Of a DNA stretch of 64,000 nucleotides, positions 24,078-31,389 are shown in pieces (the first letter of the stretch is position 1; each line of letters starts with the position of its first letter). The notes beneath the pieces are model-generated. The model ran no database searches, had not been told where the DNA came from, and was given only the letters and a program-made list of their open reading frames with translations. The DNA comes from Halomicroarcula saliterrae (GTDB taxonomy: Archaea; Halobacteriota; Halobacteria; Halobacteriales; Haloarculaceae): the NCBI RefSeq assembly GCF_031624395.1, contig NZ_JAMQON010000001.1, forward strand, positions 1,240,001 through 1,304,000, in the 5' to 3' direction. Made by a program: the position numbers and the translations under genes.

Positions 24078-25196
24078 CTATTCGTCCTCGGTCGCCGTCG
24101 CCTGCGACAGCGCGTCCTCGGGTTCGACCCAGATGACGAACTGGTCGTACTCCGCCCGGTCGACGACGCCGTTGATGTACTCGGCGTCGACCGGCGGGCG
24201 GTTGACGTCGGACTCGGCGACCGGGACGACCTGTCGGACCTCGTCGACGACCCAGCCGACCGCGCCCTGCTCCTCGAACTGCTCCGGGTCGAAGACGATG
24301 ATGAGGTTCTGTTCGCCCTCGCTCTCGATGTTCATCATCTCCTTGGGTTCGAGGATGGTCGTAATCTGGCCCCGCAGGTCGACGACACCGTCGACGAAAT
24401 CTGGCGTGTTGGGCACCCGCGTGACCGCGCTCCGTTTGACGATCTCCTCGACGTACTCGATGTCCAGACAGTAGTACTCCTCGCCGAGCGCGAACTCGAG
24501 GACGCGCACCACCTCCTCGGACTGGGTCGACCCCTCCTCCATCGCGGCTCGCGCCCCGCCCTCGGTGGACTCGACCGAGGAGGTGGCCATCGCCGCCTCC
24601 AGCAGCTCCCGGTCCGGGAGCTCGACGCCGGTCACGTCCCCGGGCACCGTCGAGGCACCGGTCACGTCCGCCGGGACCGACGGACTGTCCGTCTCGGTCG
24701 CTGCCTCGCTGTCGGTCCCCGCCTCGGCCGTCTCACCGGCGTCCGTTCCCATCACTTCCGCCGCCGACGCGGCGGCTCGCTGGGCGATGGCCTCGGCCTC
24801 GTCGGCCGCCGCGGGCGAGTTCGACGCGTCCGACCGGGAGTCGGTCGCGTCCGTCCGTGTCGACGCGGGCTGTGAGCGCTCCGGCGGTTCCGACGCCGTC
24901 GTGCCGGTCCCCGACGCCGTGGCAGCGTCACTCCCAGTCGTCGCGCGCTCGGTCGCGCCGTCGTTCTCACTCCCGTCCGTCGCGGGTTCGCCGGGCGACT
25001 CCGTCGACGCTGCGTCGTTGCCCGAGCTCGGATGGCCGGAGTCGCTGTCCGACGCCGCCGGTTCGGAGACATCGGTCGACGCCGCTGTCTCGGCCTCCGC
25101 GGTCGCGTCGGACTCCGCCGTTTCGTCGTCGGTACCCCTGTTGCCTTCGCGCATGTTGCGGATGCGCGCTGCTCTGTCCATACGGTCGTCGCTCAT
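24078..25196 (-). CDS. CheW-domain protein with a ~230-residue disordered N-terminus (ParP-like candidate)
   Basis: 372 residues. Residues 1-25 are basic (DRMDRAARIRNMREG); 26-225 are low-complexity Ser/Thr/Asp/Glu/Ala; 230-365 are a CheW/AIF domain (VRVLEFALGEEYYCLDIEYV, then VDLRGQITTILEP, then GWVVDEVRQVVPV). Ordinary CheW is about 150 residues, so the long tail is the oddity. The start ATG overlaps the stop of an upstream ParA-type ATPase by four bases. In Vibrio, ParP couples a CheW-like AIF domain and a disordered tail to the ParA-like ParC to hold chemosensory arrays at the pole; this gene pair has the same architecture, which is an inference of function, not of homology. Confidence 0.85.
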   Translation of the reverse strand: MSDDRMDRAARIRNMREGNRGTDDETAESDATAEAETAASTDVSEPAASDSDSGHPSSGNDAASTESPGEPATDGSENDGATERATTGSDAATASGTGTTASEPPERSQPASTRTDATDSRSDASNSPAAADEAEAIAQRAAASAAEVMGTDAGETAEAGTDSEAATETDSPSVPADVTGASTVPGDVTGVELPDRELLEAAMATSSVESTEGGARAAMEEGSTQSEEVVRVLEFALGEEYYCLDIEYVEEIVKRSAVTRVPNTPDFVDGVVDLRGQITTILEPKEMMNIESEGEQNLIIVFDPEQFEEQGAVGWVVDEVRQVVPVAESDVNRPPVDAEYINGVVDRAEYDQFVIWVEPEDALSQATATEDE

Positions 25197-26086
25197 GCTG
25201 TCACCTCGTTGTAACCGAACTTCCTGTCGAACTCCGCGGCGATGTCGCCGAACACCTCGGCCATGTCACACTGCTCGTCGACGCCGAAGAGGGAGTTGCC
25301 CTCGGTGTAGGCCCGCTGGAGGGCCACCCGTTTCCGGACCTGCCACACCGGGCTGTCCGGAAACGCCGCTTTGAACCACTTCAGCATCGTCTTCGCTTCC
25401 GACGTCGTCTCGATACGGTTGGCGACGACACCGAGCATCTCGACGGTGATGCCGGTCTGCTGTTCGAGCGCGACCATCTGGTCCATCAGCAGTTCGATGG
25501 CCCGCTCGGAGGTCGCCTCCGCCAGCGCCGGCACGAGGACGTGCTGGGCGGCGAAGACCCCGGTGTCGGTCAGGTTCCCGTAGAACGGCGGGGAGTCGAT
25601 GATGACGTAATCGTACCCCGACAGCGTCGACAGCGCCCGGTCCAGCGTGTCCAGCGCGTGCTCGCCCCGGACCATCCCCGGCGTGACGTTGACAGCGAAC
25701 TGCGAGAGCACCGCCGGGTCGACGTCGAGCCCGCGGGCGTTGATGCGGGCCATGAGGTCGGCGATGGTCAGTTCGTGTTCCGCCTGCAGCATGTCGATGT
25801 TCGAGGGGACCACGTCCATCTCCTCGTGTTCGACCACGAGGTCGGACACCACCGCGGGGTCGCCGGTGAGCGCGTCGAACAGCGTCGGCGGCTGCGCGTC
25901 GTAAGCCTCGCCGAGCCCCAGTCCCTCGGTCGCGTTGCCCTGCGGGTCCAGGTCCACGAAGAGGACGTCCCGGCCCCGGTCACTCAACGCACCGGCTACG
26001 TTGATAGCTACAGTCGTCTTGCCGGTCCCGCCCTTCGCGTTGGTCACGCAGATCCGGGCGGGGCCGGTCGTCGAGCCCCGGTTCAT
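25193..26086 (-). CDS. ParA/Soj-family ATPase, coupled to cheW
   Basis: 297 residues. Deviant Walker A KGGTGKTT (residues 15-22, AKGGTGKTTVAINVAG), switch region DLDPQGNAT, Walker B YDYVIIDSPPF. This is the ParA/MinD superfamily, with no MinD-type C-terminal amphipathic helix (it ends in FDRKFGYNEVTA). No ParB gene or parS-like repeat is near; its partner is instead a CheW protein with a long tail, translationally coupled (ATGA at 25193-25196). Such orphan ParA proteins position cargo such as chemoreceptor arrays. Start at 26086 fits a TATA box (TATTTTTATA) at 26121-26130. Confidence 0.92.
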   Translation of the reverse strand: MNRGSTTGPARICVTNAKGGTGKTTVAINVAGALSDRGRDVLFVDLDPQGNATEGLGLGEAYDAQPPTLFDALTGDPAVVSDLVVEHEEMDVVPSNIDMLQAEHELTIADLMARINARGLDVDPAVLSQFAVNVTPGMVRGEHALDTLDRALSTLSGYDYVIIDSPPFYGNLTDTGVFAAQHVLVPALAEATSERAIELLMDQMVALEQQTGITVEMLGVVANRIETTSEAKTMLKWFKAAFPDSPVWQVRKRVALQRAYTEGNSLFGVDEQCDMAEVFGDIAAEFDRKFGYNEVTA

Positions 26087-26120
26087 CGTCGAACTGTCCC
26101 AATCTCGGTCGTCGCCCGGT

Positions 26121-26130
26121 ATAAAAATAC
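26121..26130 (-). promoter_or_regulatory. TATA box for the parA-cheW operon
   Basis: TATTTTTATA on the minus strand, about 35-45 bases upstream of the parA ATG at 26086. The divergent region (26087-26258) also holds an imperfect palindrome GTCGT-CAG-ACGAC at 26196-26208, a possible operator between the two transcription units; operator status is a guess. Confidence 0.5.
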
Positions 26131-26258
26131 GCCCCCGATTATCAAAGTCGTAACTGTGCGTGTTCGGGCGATTTACGCGCATGCGGCCGTGAGCCGTCGT
26201 CAGACGACCGTCAGACCGAGTGCAAGATTTAACTTCGCGTAGTTGAAACAGGGAGACC

Positions 26259-26756
26259 ATGACTATCAACCCGCGCGACTACGACCTCGACGAGCTGCGG
26301 AAGATGGCCCGCCAGCGCGGCGAGCGCTCGGGCGGGCTGGCCGACGGCGACGATGTCCCCGACCCGGCGAACCTGGATATGGGAATGGAGGAGGGAGACG
26401 AGGAGATGCTGGCGGGCAGTTCCTTCCGGTCGGGGCTGTATCGGGAGCTGCTCCCCTTCCTCTCGGGAGAGAGCCGGGAGAAACCGTATCTCGGAGCCCT
26501 ACCGGAGACGTACGCGGCGGAGTTCGTCGTCTTCGAGTGGCTGGAGTTCCTGCTGATGCACTCGGGCTATCAGGGGGCCGACGAGGCGCTGGCCTACTAC
26601 GAGTCCATCGACTGGATTACCGAGGCGGTCCAGTCGGACCTCTCGGACTACCTGCTCGGCATCGACGAATCGGCCACGAACGACGGGAACGACCTCAGCG
26701 TCGACGACCACATGCTGAGTCTCGTCTACATCGCGAAGCTGACTGCCATGACATAG
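26259..26756 (+). CDS. Stand-alone ArlD/E (FlaD/E) domain archaellum-accessory protein
   Basis: 165 residues. N-terminal NPRDYDLDELRKMARQRG resembles the start of haloarchaeal FlaD/E proteins; a variable acidic linker follows (residues 25-60), and residues about 65-163 are an Arch_fla_DE domain: KPYLGALPETYAAEFVVFEW, then LAYYESIDWITEAVQSDL, then VDDHMLSLVYIAKL, all hallmark positions. ArlC/D/E form the cytosolic link between the archaellum motor and chemotaxis via CheF. It is divergent from parA-cheW and upstream of the actin-like gene. TATA-like GATTTAACT at 26226-26234. Confidence 0.82.
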   Translation: MTINPRDYDLDELRKMARQRGERSGGLADGDDVPDPANLDMGMEEGDEEMLAGSSFRSGLYRELLPFLSGESREKPYLGALPETYAAEFVVFEWLEFLLMHSGYQGADEALAYYESIDWITEAVQSDLSDYLLGIDESATNDGNDLSVDDHMLSLVYIAKLTAMT

Positions 26757-28398: not shown

Positions 28399-30240
28399 AT
28401 GGGTCAAATTATCGATTTAAATAGCTGGGAAGAGGGGTTACCCGGCGCACTCACGCGGACCGGAGGGGGTGGGTTACTGTCCAGGGGGTATCTCGCCGAC
28501 CAGCCGGCGGTAGCGCTGGTCGAGGACGCCGAGACGATGCAGTACGTGCTTACGAACCGAAAGAGCGGTGTCGAGGTCGAATCGGCGGACTCGACGTATC
28601 ACGTGAAACCGGACAGCCGCCACCGGACGGTCGTCGTGGCCACCGACCGCAGGCTACTGGTGCTCGTCGGACGCGAGGCGGGGGACGAGCGCACCACTAT
28701 CGAACTGGCCGAGGTCACTGGCGTCGAAGTGAGCGTGGGACGCCGGAACGGCCGGCTCACGGTCAGTCGGGCCGACGACACCACGTGGCGGATACCGACC
28801 GACGCCGACGGGCTCGACGCCGTCGCCGGCTACCTCCGCGACGCGGCCGACGCGTGGCGACACGTCGAGGACCTGCTGGCGTCGGTGGACGCGGACCTCT
28901 CTCTGGCGACCAGACTGTCCGAGACCGGGGAGTACGACCGCGCTCTCTCGACGGCGCGCGGGACACAGGACGACATCGAGGCCGCCCGGTCGATGGCGAT
29001 GCGGTTTAGCACTGAACATCCGGGGAACGCGTTACACGAACGACCCAAGGCGGCCGAGGCGCGCCAGCGAGCGACCGTGGCCGCCGTCCACGTCGCCCGG
29101 GCCAGAGACGCGGCCACGATTGGGGAGCAGCGCTTCGGGGACAGCGACTACGAGGCGGCCCAGGAAGCGTACGAGCGGGCCCGCGAAGCGTACGACTCGG
29201 CGCTGACCGTCGAAGCGGGAGGGCTCGACGACCACAAGCAGATACGGGCAGAACGCGACAAGGCGGCCGCTATCGCCGAGAGAATCCGCGACTCGCCCCT
29301 CCCGGACGCTATCACGGCAGACAGGGCGGCCGTCGCGGCCGACGACCCCGCGACGGCGGCCACGCAGTGGGAGACGGCGCTGGCACGCTATCGGTCGGCG
29401 CTCGACGCCGACGAGCCGGACGACGTCCTCTTCGGGAGCGACCCCGAGCAGATACGGGACCGCATCGGGACCGTCGCCCGGAGCCTCACCGCGGCCCGGC
29501 GGACCGTCGCCGACGACGCCATGGGGGCCGGCGACTGGTACGCCGACGCCGAACAGTACGAGGCGGCACTGGAAGAGTTCGCGGCGGCCGCCGAGGCCTT
29601 CGACGCCGCGCTGGCGACCGCCACGGAGAGCTACCCCGACGCGGTCCCGCATCTGGAGGCCGACCGCGCGGCGCTCCAGCAGCGCATCGACCGCGCGCAA
29701 GCGGCCCTGAACGGCGAGGACCCCGGCGAGGACCGCATTCAGGCCGACGACGAGCCCGAATACGAGCTGTCGGCGACGCTCGGGGAGGTGGACGGCCCGA
29801 CCGCGATAGCGGACGCCATCGCACCGCTGACGACGGACGCGGCGCTGGCGGAGTTACCGGAGTCGACCGCCGAGCGTCTCCAGCGGCTCGACGGCGCCGG
29901 CGTGACGCGGGTCGTCAGCGACGCGCTGGACGCGACGGACTGGTCGACCCGGGCCGCCAGCCCGCGGATGCCGTTCGACCTGCTTGCCACACGCGGCACG
30001 GAACGGATGGGCGTCTTCGTCACGGCCGCAGACAGCGAACTCACCGCCGATGTCGTCGACCAGTGTGCCGGCGTCACCGGCGCGGCCGGCACCGACGCCG
30101 TGATGCTCGCGACCACCGCGACGATTCCGACGCCGGTCGAGGAGTTCGCGGCCGAGCGCGACGCCCGACTCCTGGGGCGCGAGTCGCTGGCCGCCATCGT
30201 CGACACCCAGGGGCTGACGGTCCCGACACCGGTCGAGTGA
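28399..30240 (+). CDS. PH-like / helical-repeat / degenerate Mrr-like protein
   Basis: 613 residues. About 35-150 looks like a bacterial PH/GRAM-type beta domain (TMQYVLTNRKSGVEVE, then TVVVATDRRLLVLVGREAGD, then VTGVEVSVGRRNGRLTV). 160-430 is Ala-rich helical with TPR-like pairs (DYEAAQEAYERAREAYDSAL; EQYEAALEEFAAAAEAFDAA). 500-613 matches an Mrr/RecB-like endonuclease fold (MPFDLLATRGTERMGVFVTA, then GTDAVMLATTATIPTPVEEF), keeping the first Asp but lacking the Gln/Glu-x-Lys of the active site (VFV instead), so probably not a nuclease. Possible membrane-surface scaffold. Confidence 0.78.
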   Translation: MGQIIDLNSWEEGLPGALTRTGGGGLLSRGYLADQPAVALVEDAETMQYVLTNRKSGVEVESADSTYHVKPDSRHRTVVVATDRRLLVLVGREAGDERTTIELAEVTGVEVSVGRRNGRLTVSRADDTTWRIPTDADGLDAVAGYLRDAADAWRHVEDLLASVDADLSLATRLSETGEYDRALSTARGTQDDIEAARSMAMRFSTEHPGNALHERPKAAEARQRATVAAVHVARARDAATIGEQRFGDSDYEAAQEAYERAREAYDSALTVEAGGLDDHKQIRAERDKAAAIAERIRDSPLPDAITADRAAVAADDPATAATQWETALARYRSALDADEPDDVLFGSDPEQIRDRIGTVARSLTAARRTVADDAMGAGDWYADAEQYEAALEEFAAAAEAFDAALATATESYPDAVPHLEADRAALQQRIDRAQAALNGEDPGEDRIQADDEPEYELSATLGEVDGPTAIADAIAPLTTDAALAELPESTAERLQRLDGAGVTRVVSDALDATDWSTRAASPRMPFDLLATRGTERMGVFVTAADSELTADVVDQCAGVTGAAGTDAVMLATTATIPTPVEEFAAERDARLLGRESLAAIVDTQGLTVPTPVE

Positions 30241-30477: not shown

Positions 30478-31389
30478 TCACAGCGTCGTGCTGGTCCCGG
30501 CGTAGCCACAGTCGTCACAGGCTGCCGTCTCTCGCTCGCCCAGCGTGTAGACCGCCACGTGGCCGCCACACCGGGGGCAGTTGTCGCCCGCCGACGGCTG
30601 GCGCGCGTCCCGGACGACGCGGTCGAACACCGGCGTTCGCGTCGAGCCCGCGACGACCTGCGCGTGGACCGCCGAGACGGAGTCCTCGACGGCGACGCCC
30701 CAGATGAGCACGGCGTCGTCCGGGAGCGTGGCCTGGATACCGTCCACGGCGTCGACTGCCGATTCGAGCGTGAGGTCGTCGTCGCCGACGACGTTGACCA
30801 GTACGGCGCTGAGCCCGTCGATGTCCGCGTAGGCCGAATCGAGCGCGTCCTCGACCGCGTGAAGCGTGTCCGCGGCCACGTCGCCGGTACTCGTCGCCTT
30901 ACCGGTCGTTATCGCGGCGGCCTCGCCGTGGTCGAGCACCGTCCTGATGTCCGCGGGGTCGAGGTTGATGACGCCGGGTCGGGCGACGATCTCGTGCAGC
31001 GTCGTCACCACCGAGCGGACGCCCTGACGGTGATGCTCTGGCGGGATGACGACGGTCGCGTCCACGGCCGAGCGGAGCCGGGCGATTTCCCGGGCCGTCG
31101 TGGGGTCCAGGTCCGCCGCGGTCGCCGGTGCGCCGACGACGGCGATTGTCAGCCCCTCGCGCGTCGCCAGCCGGTCGAGCCACTCTGCCGGCGGCACGGT
31201 TCCGTTGCCAAAGTCCGTCGCGAACACCGTGATGGCCGACCGGTCACGCGGCTCCGTCGGAGGCTCGGACAGCGCGGTGATACCCGGGACCTGCCCCAGG
31301 CTCTCCCCGACGGCCGCGAGCCCGCCGTGACCGATGACGACCGAGTGGTGGTGGCCCAGAAACGTGACGGTATCTCCTCGAATAGACAC
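30478..31389 (-). CDS. Shortened FtsZ-like protein with C-terminal zinc ribbon
   Basis: 303 residues (FtsZ is 360-400). T1-like start VVIGHGGLAAVGESLG (17-32); only about 28 residues separate it from ATDFGNGTVPP (57-67), which stands where the GGGTGTG nucleotide loop is; then LTIAVVGAP, AVDATVVIPPEHH and the T7 loop GVINLDPADIRTVL (139-152) with the catalytic N-x-D-x-x-D (142-147) intact; SAVLVNVVGDDDLTLE and AVLIWGVAVED follow in exact FtsZ order. Residues 271-294 are a zinc ribbon (CPRC, CDDC), absent from FtsZ. GTP binding is therefore doubtful but the T7 loop could complete another subunit's active site. Confidence 0.8.
   Translation of the reverse strand: MSIRGDTVTFLGHHHSVVIGHGGLAAVGESLGQVPGITALSEPPTEPRDRSAITVFATDFGNGTVPPAEWLDRLATREGLTIAVVGAPATAADLDPTTAREIARLRSAVDATVVIPPEHHRQGVRSVVTTLHEIVARPGVINLDPADIRTVLDHGEAAAITTGKATSTGDVAADTLHAVEDALDSAYADIDGLSAVLVNVVGDDDLTLESAVDAVDGIQATLPDDAVLIWGVAVEDSVSAVHAQVVAGSTRTPVFDRVVRDARQPSAGDNCPRCGGHVAVYTLGERETAACDDCGYAGTSTTL

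Follow-up and report, generated by a model that had tools for sequence, protein, structure and literature searches.

Which cargo might be served by a ParA-type ATPase whose gene overlaps, in an archaeon, the gene of a CheW protein? This question is raised by two genes of Halomicroarcula saliterrae, parA and cheW2 (the latter name was coined in this analysis), which lie in the stretch of 64,000 nucleotides analysed here (contig NZ_JAMQON010000001.1, positions 1,240,001 to 1,304,000; hereafter the window). We suggest that the pair probably represents a two-gene cassette which positions or partitions chemosensory arrays, and whose adaptor had a separate, haloarchaeal-plasmid origin. The features that bear on this idea are, in window positions:

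25193..26086, minus strand: parA, Soj/ParA-type Walker ATPase of 297 amino acids, with start ATG at 26086 and stop at 25193
24078..25196, minus strand: cheW2, 372 amino acids, with N-terminal basic helix, disordered acidic linker and CheW domain
25193..25196, minus strand: ATGA in which the cheW2 start overlaps the parA stop, read from the sequence, with a -4 offset in nearly all relatives
25149..25175, minus strand: codons of RAARIRNMR (CheW2 residues 8-16), a putative ParA-binding/ATPase-activating peptide
24513..25136, minus strand: disordered acidic linker (CheW2 residues 21-228), from composition and low predicted local distance difference test (pLDDT) values
24747..24812, minus strand: helix predicted in the linker (CheW2 residues 129-150), from the AlphaFold 2 (AF2) model and alignment
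24084..24512, minus strand: CheW domain of CheW2 (residues 229-371), from Foldseek and groove residues, the predicted array-binding end

The ATPase and its tagged adaptor

Judging from its AF2 model (pLDDT 88.9), the ATPase of the pair is Soj-like. Indeed, a structure search with this model retrieved Soj/ParA proteins at the top (Z about 33), and MinD chains, the best of them at 26.6, at the lower Z values that the superfamily would predict. The protein matches the Pfam families AAA_31 (5e-33) and CbiA (3e-20) and carries the deviant Walker A motif KGGTGKTT at residues 18-25, which is kept as KGGTGKTT or KGGVGKTT in the aligned relatives, giving the combination of a KGGxGKT Walker A motif and a ParA fold by which ParA/Soj proteins are recognised. 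The amphipathic membrane-targeting helix that closes MinD-type proteins is absent, only about seven residues following the last core helix (274-290) in the model, and the C-termini of the aligned relatives are also short. A basic VRKR stretch, conserved across the aligned ParAs, is only suggestive of ATP-dependent, non-specific DNA binding.

An earlier interpretation of the locus, made from the letters alone (the sequence-only reading), had noticed that the two genes overlap by ATGA. The overlap was confirmed, start and stop being shared at 25196-25193, and translational coupling of cheW2 to parA through it is predicted. The same reading had described a C-terminal CheW domain preceded by about 200 residues of low complexity. 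This description holds for the larger part of the adaptor: CheW is the sole Pfam domain matched (3.8e-22, residues 232-365), residues 21-225 consist for 86% of A, S, T, G, P, D and E and for 7% of hydrophobic residues (net charge -38), and the AlphaFold pLDDT is about 40-70 across the linker vs >90 over most of the CheW domain. It does not hold for the first 20 residues, which form a conserved basic helix. The length of the linker ranges from 70 to 393 amino acids in 82 distinct relatives. AlphaFold predicts a helix at residues 196-204 of the linker besides the one at residues 129-150; stretches comparable to the latter, rich in A, Q and R, were seen in the alignment of several Haloarculaceae, and this helix is a possible second binding site.

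The N-terminal helix, which spans residues 5-16 in the AF2 model, carries a sequence tag with the consensus RAxR(I/L)(R/K)x(M/L)R. Apart from small deviations, the tag, which begins at residue 5-20, is present in every ParA-linked CheW (31 of 31 in the first sample), and none of the 82 distinct proteins departs from its R, A, R and R. The strict motif occurs in none of the 896 other open reading frames of the same loci, and the tag was not found at the starts of unpaired CheW proteins, CheW1 included; its DNA form has a single match in the 4.2-megabase genome, the cheW2 site, with 0.02 matches expected in the window. It is known that ParA/MinD activators are modular, a short basic N-terminal extension being joined to a cargo or scaffold domain that is otherwise unrelated, as in PomX, McdB, ParB and ParG (PMC7993993). 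CheW2 possesses such a conserved, short and positively charged N-terminal peptide, which, on the strength of its sequence and of this analogy, is predicted to be a ParA-binding/ATPase-activating element; unlike those proteins, its cargo would be archaeal chemosensory arrays. The partner proteins of the ParAs of loci L092 and L093 lack the tag. Two proteins of the CheW2 type and of 508-557 amino acids (L062:10454-11980 and L181:6882-8555) carry the basic tag in two or three copies, together with a CheW domain that has diverged strongly.

As regards the opposite end of the adaptor, a Foldseek search with the CheW domain ranked the CheW proteins of E. coli and T. maritima first, with template modelling (TM) scores, by target, of 0.82-0.85, and CheA chains lower. 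The hydrophobic positions of the receptor groove, taken from Thermotoga CheW (PMC5706961), are kept: L14, V27, I30 and V33 of T. maritima correspond to L233, I246, V249 and I252 of CheW2. On the modelled fold, the domain is nearest to true CheW rather than to CheA-P5. The kept groove would also suit a role in signal tuning, in which CheW2 and CheW1 are rivals for receptors and ParA, through its nucleotide state, keeps CheW2 from the arrays or releases it to them; the second CheW of Halobacterium, which binds receptors and not CheA, has been proposed to be a competitor of CheW1 (PMC3579733). We consider this role unlikely for the pair. The arl-linked CheW of Halobacteriaceae-like genomes groups apart from the window's CheW2 and has no adjoining ParA, no pair having been found in those genomes, and on these grounds the identity of the window's CheW2 with the Halobacterium one was rejected; moreover, ParA systems with a basic-tag adaptor generally position things (PMC7993993).

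Conservation of the pair and its chemotaxis context

The distribution of the pair was analysed in 145 genomes of the class Halobacteria, ParAs with an E-value below 1e-100 being taken as orthologous and the CheW domain alone being used as the query in the genome search for CheW. Clear ParA orthologues were found in 22 Haloarculaceae genomes (including that of the window) and in genome G124; in every one of them the gene that follows is a long-tailed CheW, nearly always with the 4-base overlap. A second set of ParA-CheW pairs was found in eight Natrialbaceae genomes, where cheB and cheA adjoin the pair in seven of eight cases, as fetched, and cheW1 is nearby in all eight; cheY is also close, and in some genomes arl genes as well. 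This picture agrees with that of 80 named loci, which bring the pair to over 50 named genomes of Haloarcula, Halomicroarcula, Halosimplex, Halapricum, Halomicrobium, Salinibaculum, Halorientalis, Halovenus and Halorhabdus on the Haloarculaceae side, and of Natrialba, Natrarchaeobius, Halopiger, Halobiforma, Haloterrigena and Natronorubrum on the Natrialbaceae side. The genome paper of Natrialba magadii reports che loci with paired cheW genes and names no ParA (PMC3403918).

A separate CheW-domain match exists in all 31 pair-bearing genomes, and the pair occurs in none of the 25 genomes devoid of a CheW match. In the host, the che/arl cluster (CheW1, CheA, CheB and ArlCE, named from Pfam matches, sequence and gene order) lies elsewhere, on contig C7. 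The conservation of the pair near arl/che genes, which the sequence-only reading had asked to be checked, is thus found in two families, by cheB-cheA and cheW1 in Natrialbaceae and divergent from an arlD-like gene in Haloarculaceae. Since the che context, the kept groove and a basic peptide of the ParA-activator type all point the same way, the idea of that reading that the cargo is a chemosensory array is strengthened by conservation in two families, although the positioning of arrays is still something that we infer.

Based on these data, the cassette might work as follows. ParA-ATP dimers would bind the nucleoid non-specifically, as expected from the Soj-type fold, and the C-terminal CheW domain, in view of its groove and of the che context, would join CheW2 to receptor arrays. 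The flexible tail would offer the N-terminal RAxRIRxMR peptide, which might bind ParA and trigger ATP hydrolysis, as known activators do and as the same tag in plasmid adaptors (see below) suggests. Cycles of binding and release might then drag, space or partition the arrays, so that there is one for each daughter cell or pole.

Some observations weigh against this interpretation. Haloarchaea are highly polyploid, and nucleoid-based positioning may be less simple in such cells. Four Haloarculaceae genomes (G036, G037, G049 and G099) possess CheW and lack the pair, so that chemotaxis as such does not require it. Finally, the placement of arrays in Haloferax depends on MinD2 and MinD4 (PMC11588486), and related cells may therefore use another system for it.

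Bacterial counterparts, plasmid relatives and the origin of the adaptor

The positioning of arrays by a ParA-family ATPase and a CheW-fold partner is already known in bacteria. As in Vibrio ParC/ParP and Halothiobacillus ParC-CheW, the ATPase of the window is encoded together with a CheW-fold protein, and the partner follows the same plan, with a long linker between an N-terminal end for ATPase binding and a C-terminal domain for array binding, both of these roles being predicted in the case of CheW2 (PMC5706961, PMC10241942). In bacteria, a CheW protein is found as the partner of ParC, and parC overlaps the gene that follows it (PMC10241942). The gene order and the architecture of ParC/ParP, a parA-like gene and a CheW-fold partner with an N-terminal region and a linker, are therefore recognisable in the window's sequence. 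ParP, however, which couples the formation of arrays to their localisation, has an AIF domain nearer to CheA-P5 than to CheW (PMC5706961), whereas the window's adaptor has a CheW proper and no P5-like AIF domain; and, in trees of haloarchaeal sequences, the window's ParA nests among plasmid-type ParAs, whose adaptors commonly carry the tag. The ParC/ParP-like pair of the sequence-only reading stands, in conclusion, as an analogy only.

The PpfA/TlpT system of Rhodobacter sphaeroides is similar in associating a ParA-like ATPase with a taxis protein whose basic N-terminus makes it a ParB analogue (PMC7993993, PMC5706961), but TlpT is a cytoplasmic chemoreceptor and the window's adaptor a CheW. 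Within haloarchaea, MinD2 and MinD4 of Haloferax volcanii are also ParA/MinD ATPases and affect the placement of arrays and archaella (PMC11588486); unlike the window's ATPase they belong to the MinD class, and no CheW-type adaptor gene is described for them in the literature searched.

A likeness is also found with haloarchaeal plasmids. Other related haloarchaeal ParAs, about 50-58% identical to that of the window, are followed, at the same -4 overlap, by a small protein with the same kind of N-terminal tag (strict form in 6 and looser form in 10 of the 14 of the first sample) and an acidic linker. CheW2 shares these traits; it differs in the C-terminal domain, which in the plasmid-type adaptors is a short one of the KNRxxYPLxxxxGL type and not CheW. 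No Pfam family reaches the cut-off in a scan of the plasmid-type adaptors, a widespread family which occurs on 80 plasmid records (those listed are haloarchaeal and annotated as hypothetical); L186:6786-7190 and L196:6777-7220 are examples. Because of their plasmid location and of their place in a parA operon, we infer that they serve plasmid partition.

Might the pair of the window, then, still partition DNA, be it the chromosome or a replicon, its CheW domain serving only incidentally, for oligomerisation? The nesting of its ParA among plasmid-type ParAs fits this possibility, as does the effect of salactin, encoded nearby, on DNA distribution at low ploidy (PMC10746226). We nevertheless regard it as very improbable. 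The plasmid-type C-terminal domain is absent from CheW2, the groove of its CheW domain is kept, in Natrialbaceae the pair lies inside che clusters, and there is no repeat array by the operon. A repeat search for centromere-like arrays found none outside coding sequence, and none in the intergenic region upstream of parA, the weak repeats being almost all inside coding sequence. The sequence-only reading had likewise noted the absence of a ParB and of centromere repeats; no ParB gene adjoins, yet the remark was misleading in so far as CheW2 fills the position of a ParB analogue, that is, of the adaptor.

Returning to array positioning, the shared tag and linker suggest, as the simplest account of CheW2, an adaptor of plasmid partition that received CheW in exchange for its cargo domain. 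In unrooted ParA trees of haloarchaeal sequences, in which gains and reversals look alike, the CheW-linked ParAs of Natrialbaceae group with short plasmid-type ParAs, and those of Haloarculaceae fall with a Halococcus ParA having a non-CheW adaptor. A single group of CheW-linked ParAs was rejected by the approximately unbiased (AU) test (p 0.0006; 0.001 without long branches), and the CheW2 domains of both families do not form a single clade either (p 0.029); these values serve as a guide, since the first tree was already at hand when the groups were compared. A third case, of the Haloferacaceae type (L062 and L181), has long branches in the CheW tree. The two sets of trees therefore indicate two or more changes of the cargo domain of the adaptor, whether towards CheW or away from it.

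The neighbouring genes and the meaning of the pair

Upstream of parA the window contains the following features:

26087..26258, no strand: intergenic region of 172 base pairs between the divergent parA and arlD-like genes, without repeat array
26259..26756, plus strand: arlD-like gene (Arch_fla_DE, Pfam 5.5e-29), 165 amino acids
26838..27941, plus strand: salactin gene, 367 amino acids (PF25229 1.5e-186; NF053533 above cut-off)

The genome encodes two Arch_fla_DE proteins, the other being of the ArlCE type in the arl cluster, and the arlD-like protein groups with a small arl-cluster protein of genome G003 (Shimodaira-Hasegawa-like approximate likelihood ratio test, SH-aLRT, 93; moderate support, long branches). 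Based on this, the gene is probably an ArlD that moved out of the arl cluster. Its product has an N-terminal DYDLDELRKMARQRGER basic stretch. Most Haloarculaceae retain the divergent arlD-parA order, and in many genera of the family the gene after arlD is that of salactin (which thus lies next to the arlD-like gene and parA; relatives in L133-L180), although not in Halorientalis or in several Halovenus. Salactin as an obligate part of the system was rejected, being present in 71 of the 145 genomes and often distant from the pair; the paper on salactin describes its synteny as poor and the Halobacterium deletion as having no motility phenotype, and mentions neither ParA nor CheW (PMC10746226). 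On the basis of synteny, a link between the polar salactin filament and the positioning of taxis components is possible, and suggestive only.

The same arrangement might indicate a cargo other than the array by itself, either the archaellum motor or a polar hub shared by ArlD, salactin and arrays: the sole arlD-like gene is divergent from parA, with salactin beside them in many Haloarculaceae, and in Haloferax ArlD marks the motor pole (PMC6509185, PMC11588486). This seems to us quite improbable, as the pair is beside neither arlD nor salactin in Natrialbaceae and Halorientalis, the placement of arrays in Haloferax is independent of that of archaella (PMC6509185), and the salactin deletion mentioned above left motility unaffected. 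Farther on, positions 28399-30240 encode a protein of 613 amino acids with a weak Mrr_cat match only, kept beside salactin in many Haloarculaceae, and positions 30478-31389 one of 303 amino acids with a match to the FtsZ C-terminal domain (2.7e-8) and a C-terminal zinc ribbon; in the latter protein the GTPase domain of FtsZ is not matched.

A broader scenario can be drawn, to which we assign an even chance of being correct: haloarchaea would have turned, at least twice, a plasmid-partition ParA into an array positioner by replacing nothing but the C-terminal cargo domain of the adaptor with CheW domains of different lineages, the tag would be a portable ParA address, and in Haloarculaceae the cassette would reside in a polar-organisation locus together with ArlD and salactin.

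No description of an archaeal ParA-CheW pair was found in the literature searched, most subscription journals lying outside it. In the same literature, what is reported on array placement in Archaea is limited to the effects of MinD2 and MinD4 in Haloferax, and no adaptor from an ATPase to the array is known. For the placement and inheritance of chemosensory arrays in Archaea, the pair supplies an ATPase and an adaptor with a short interface. It also supplies a natural domain-swap, in which one putative ParA-binding tag precedes CheW in certain operons and a domain of the plasmid type in others, and may show how a DNA-partition machine became an organelle-positioning machine outside bacteria.
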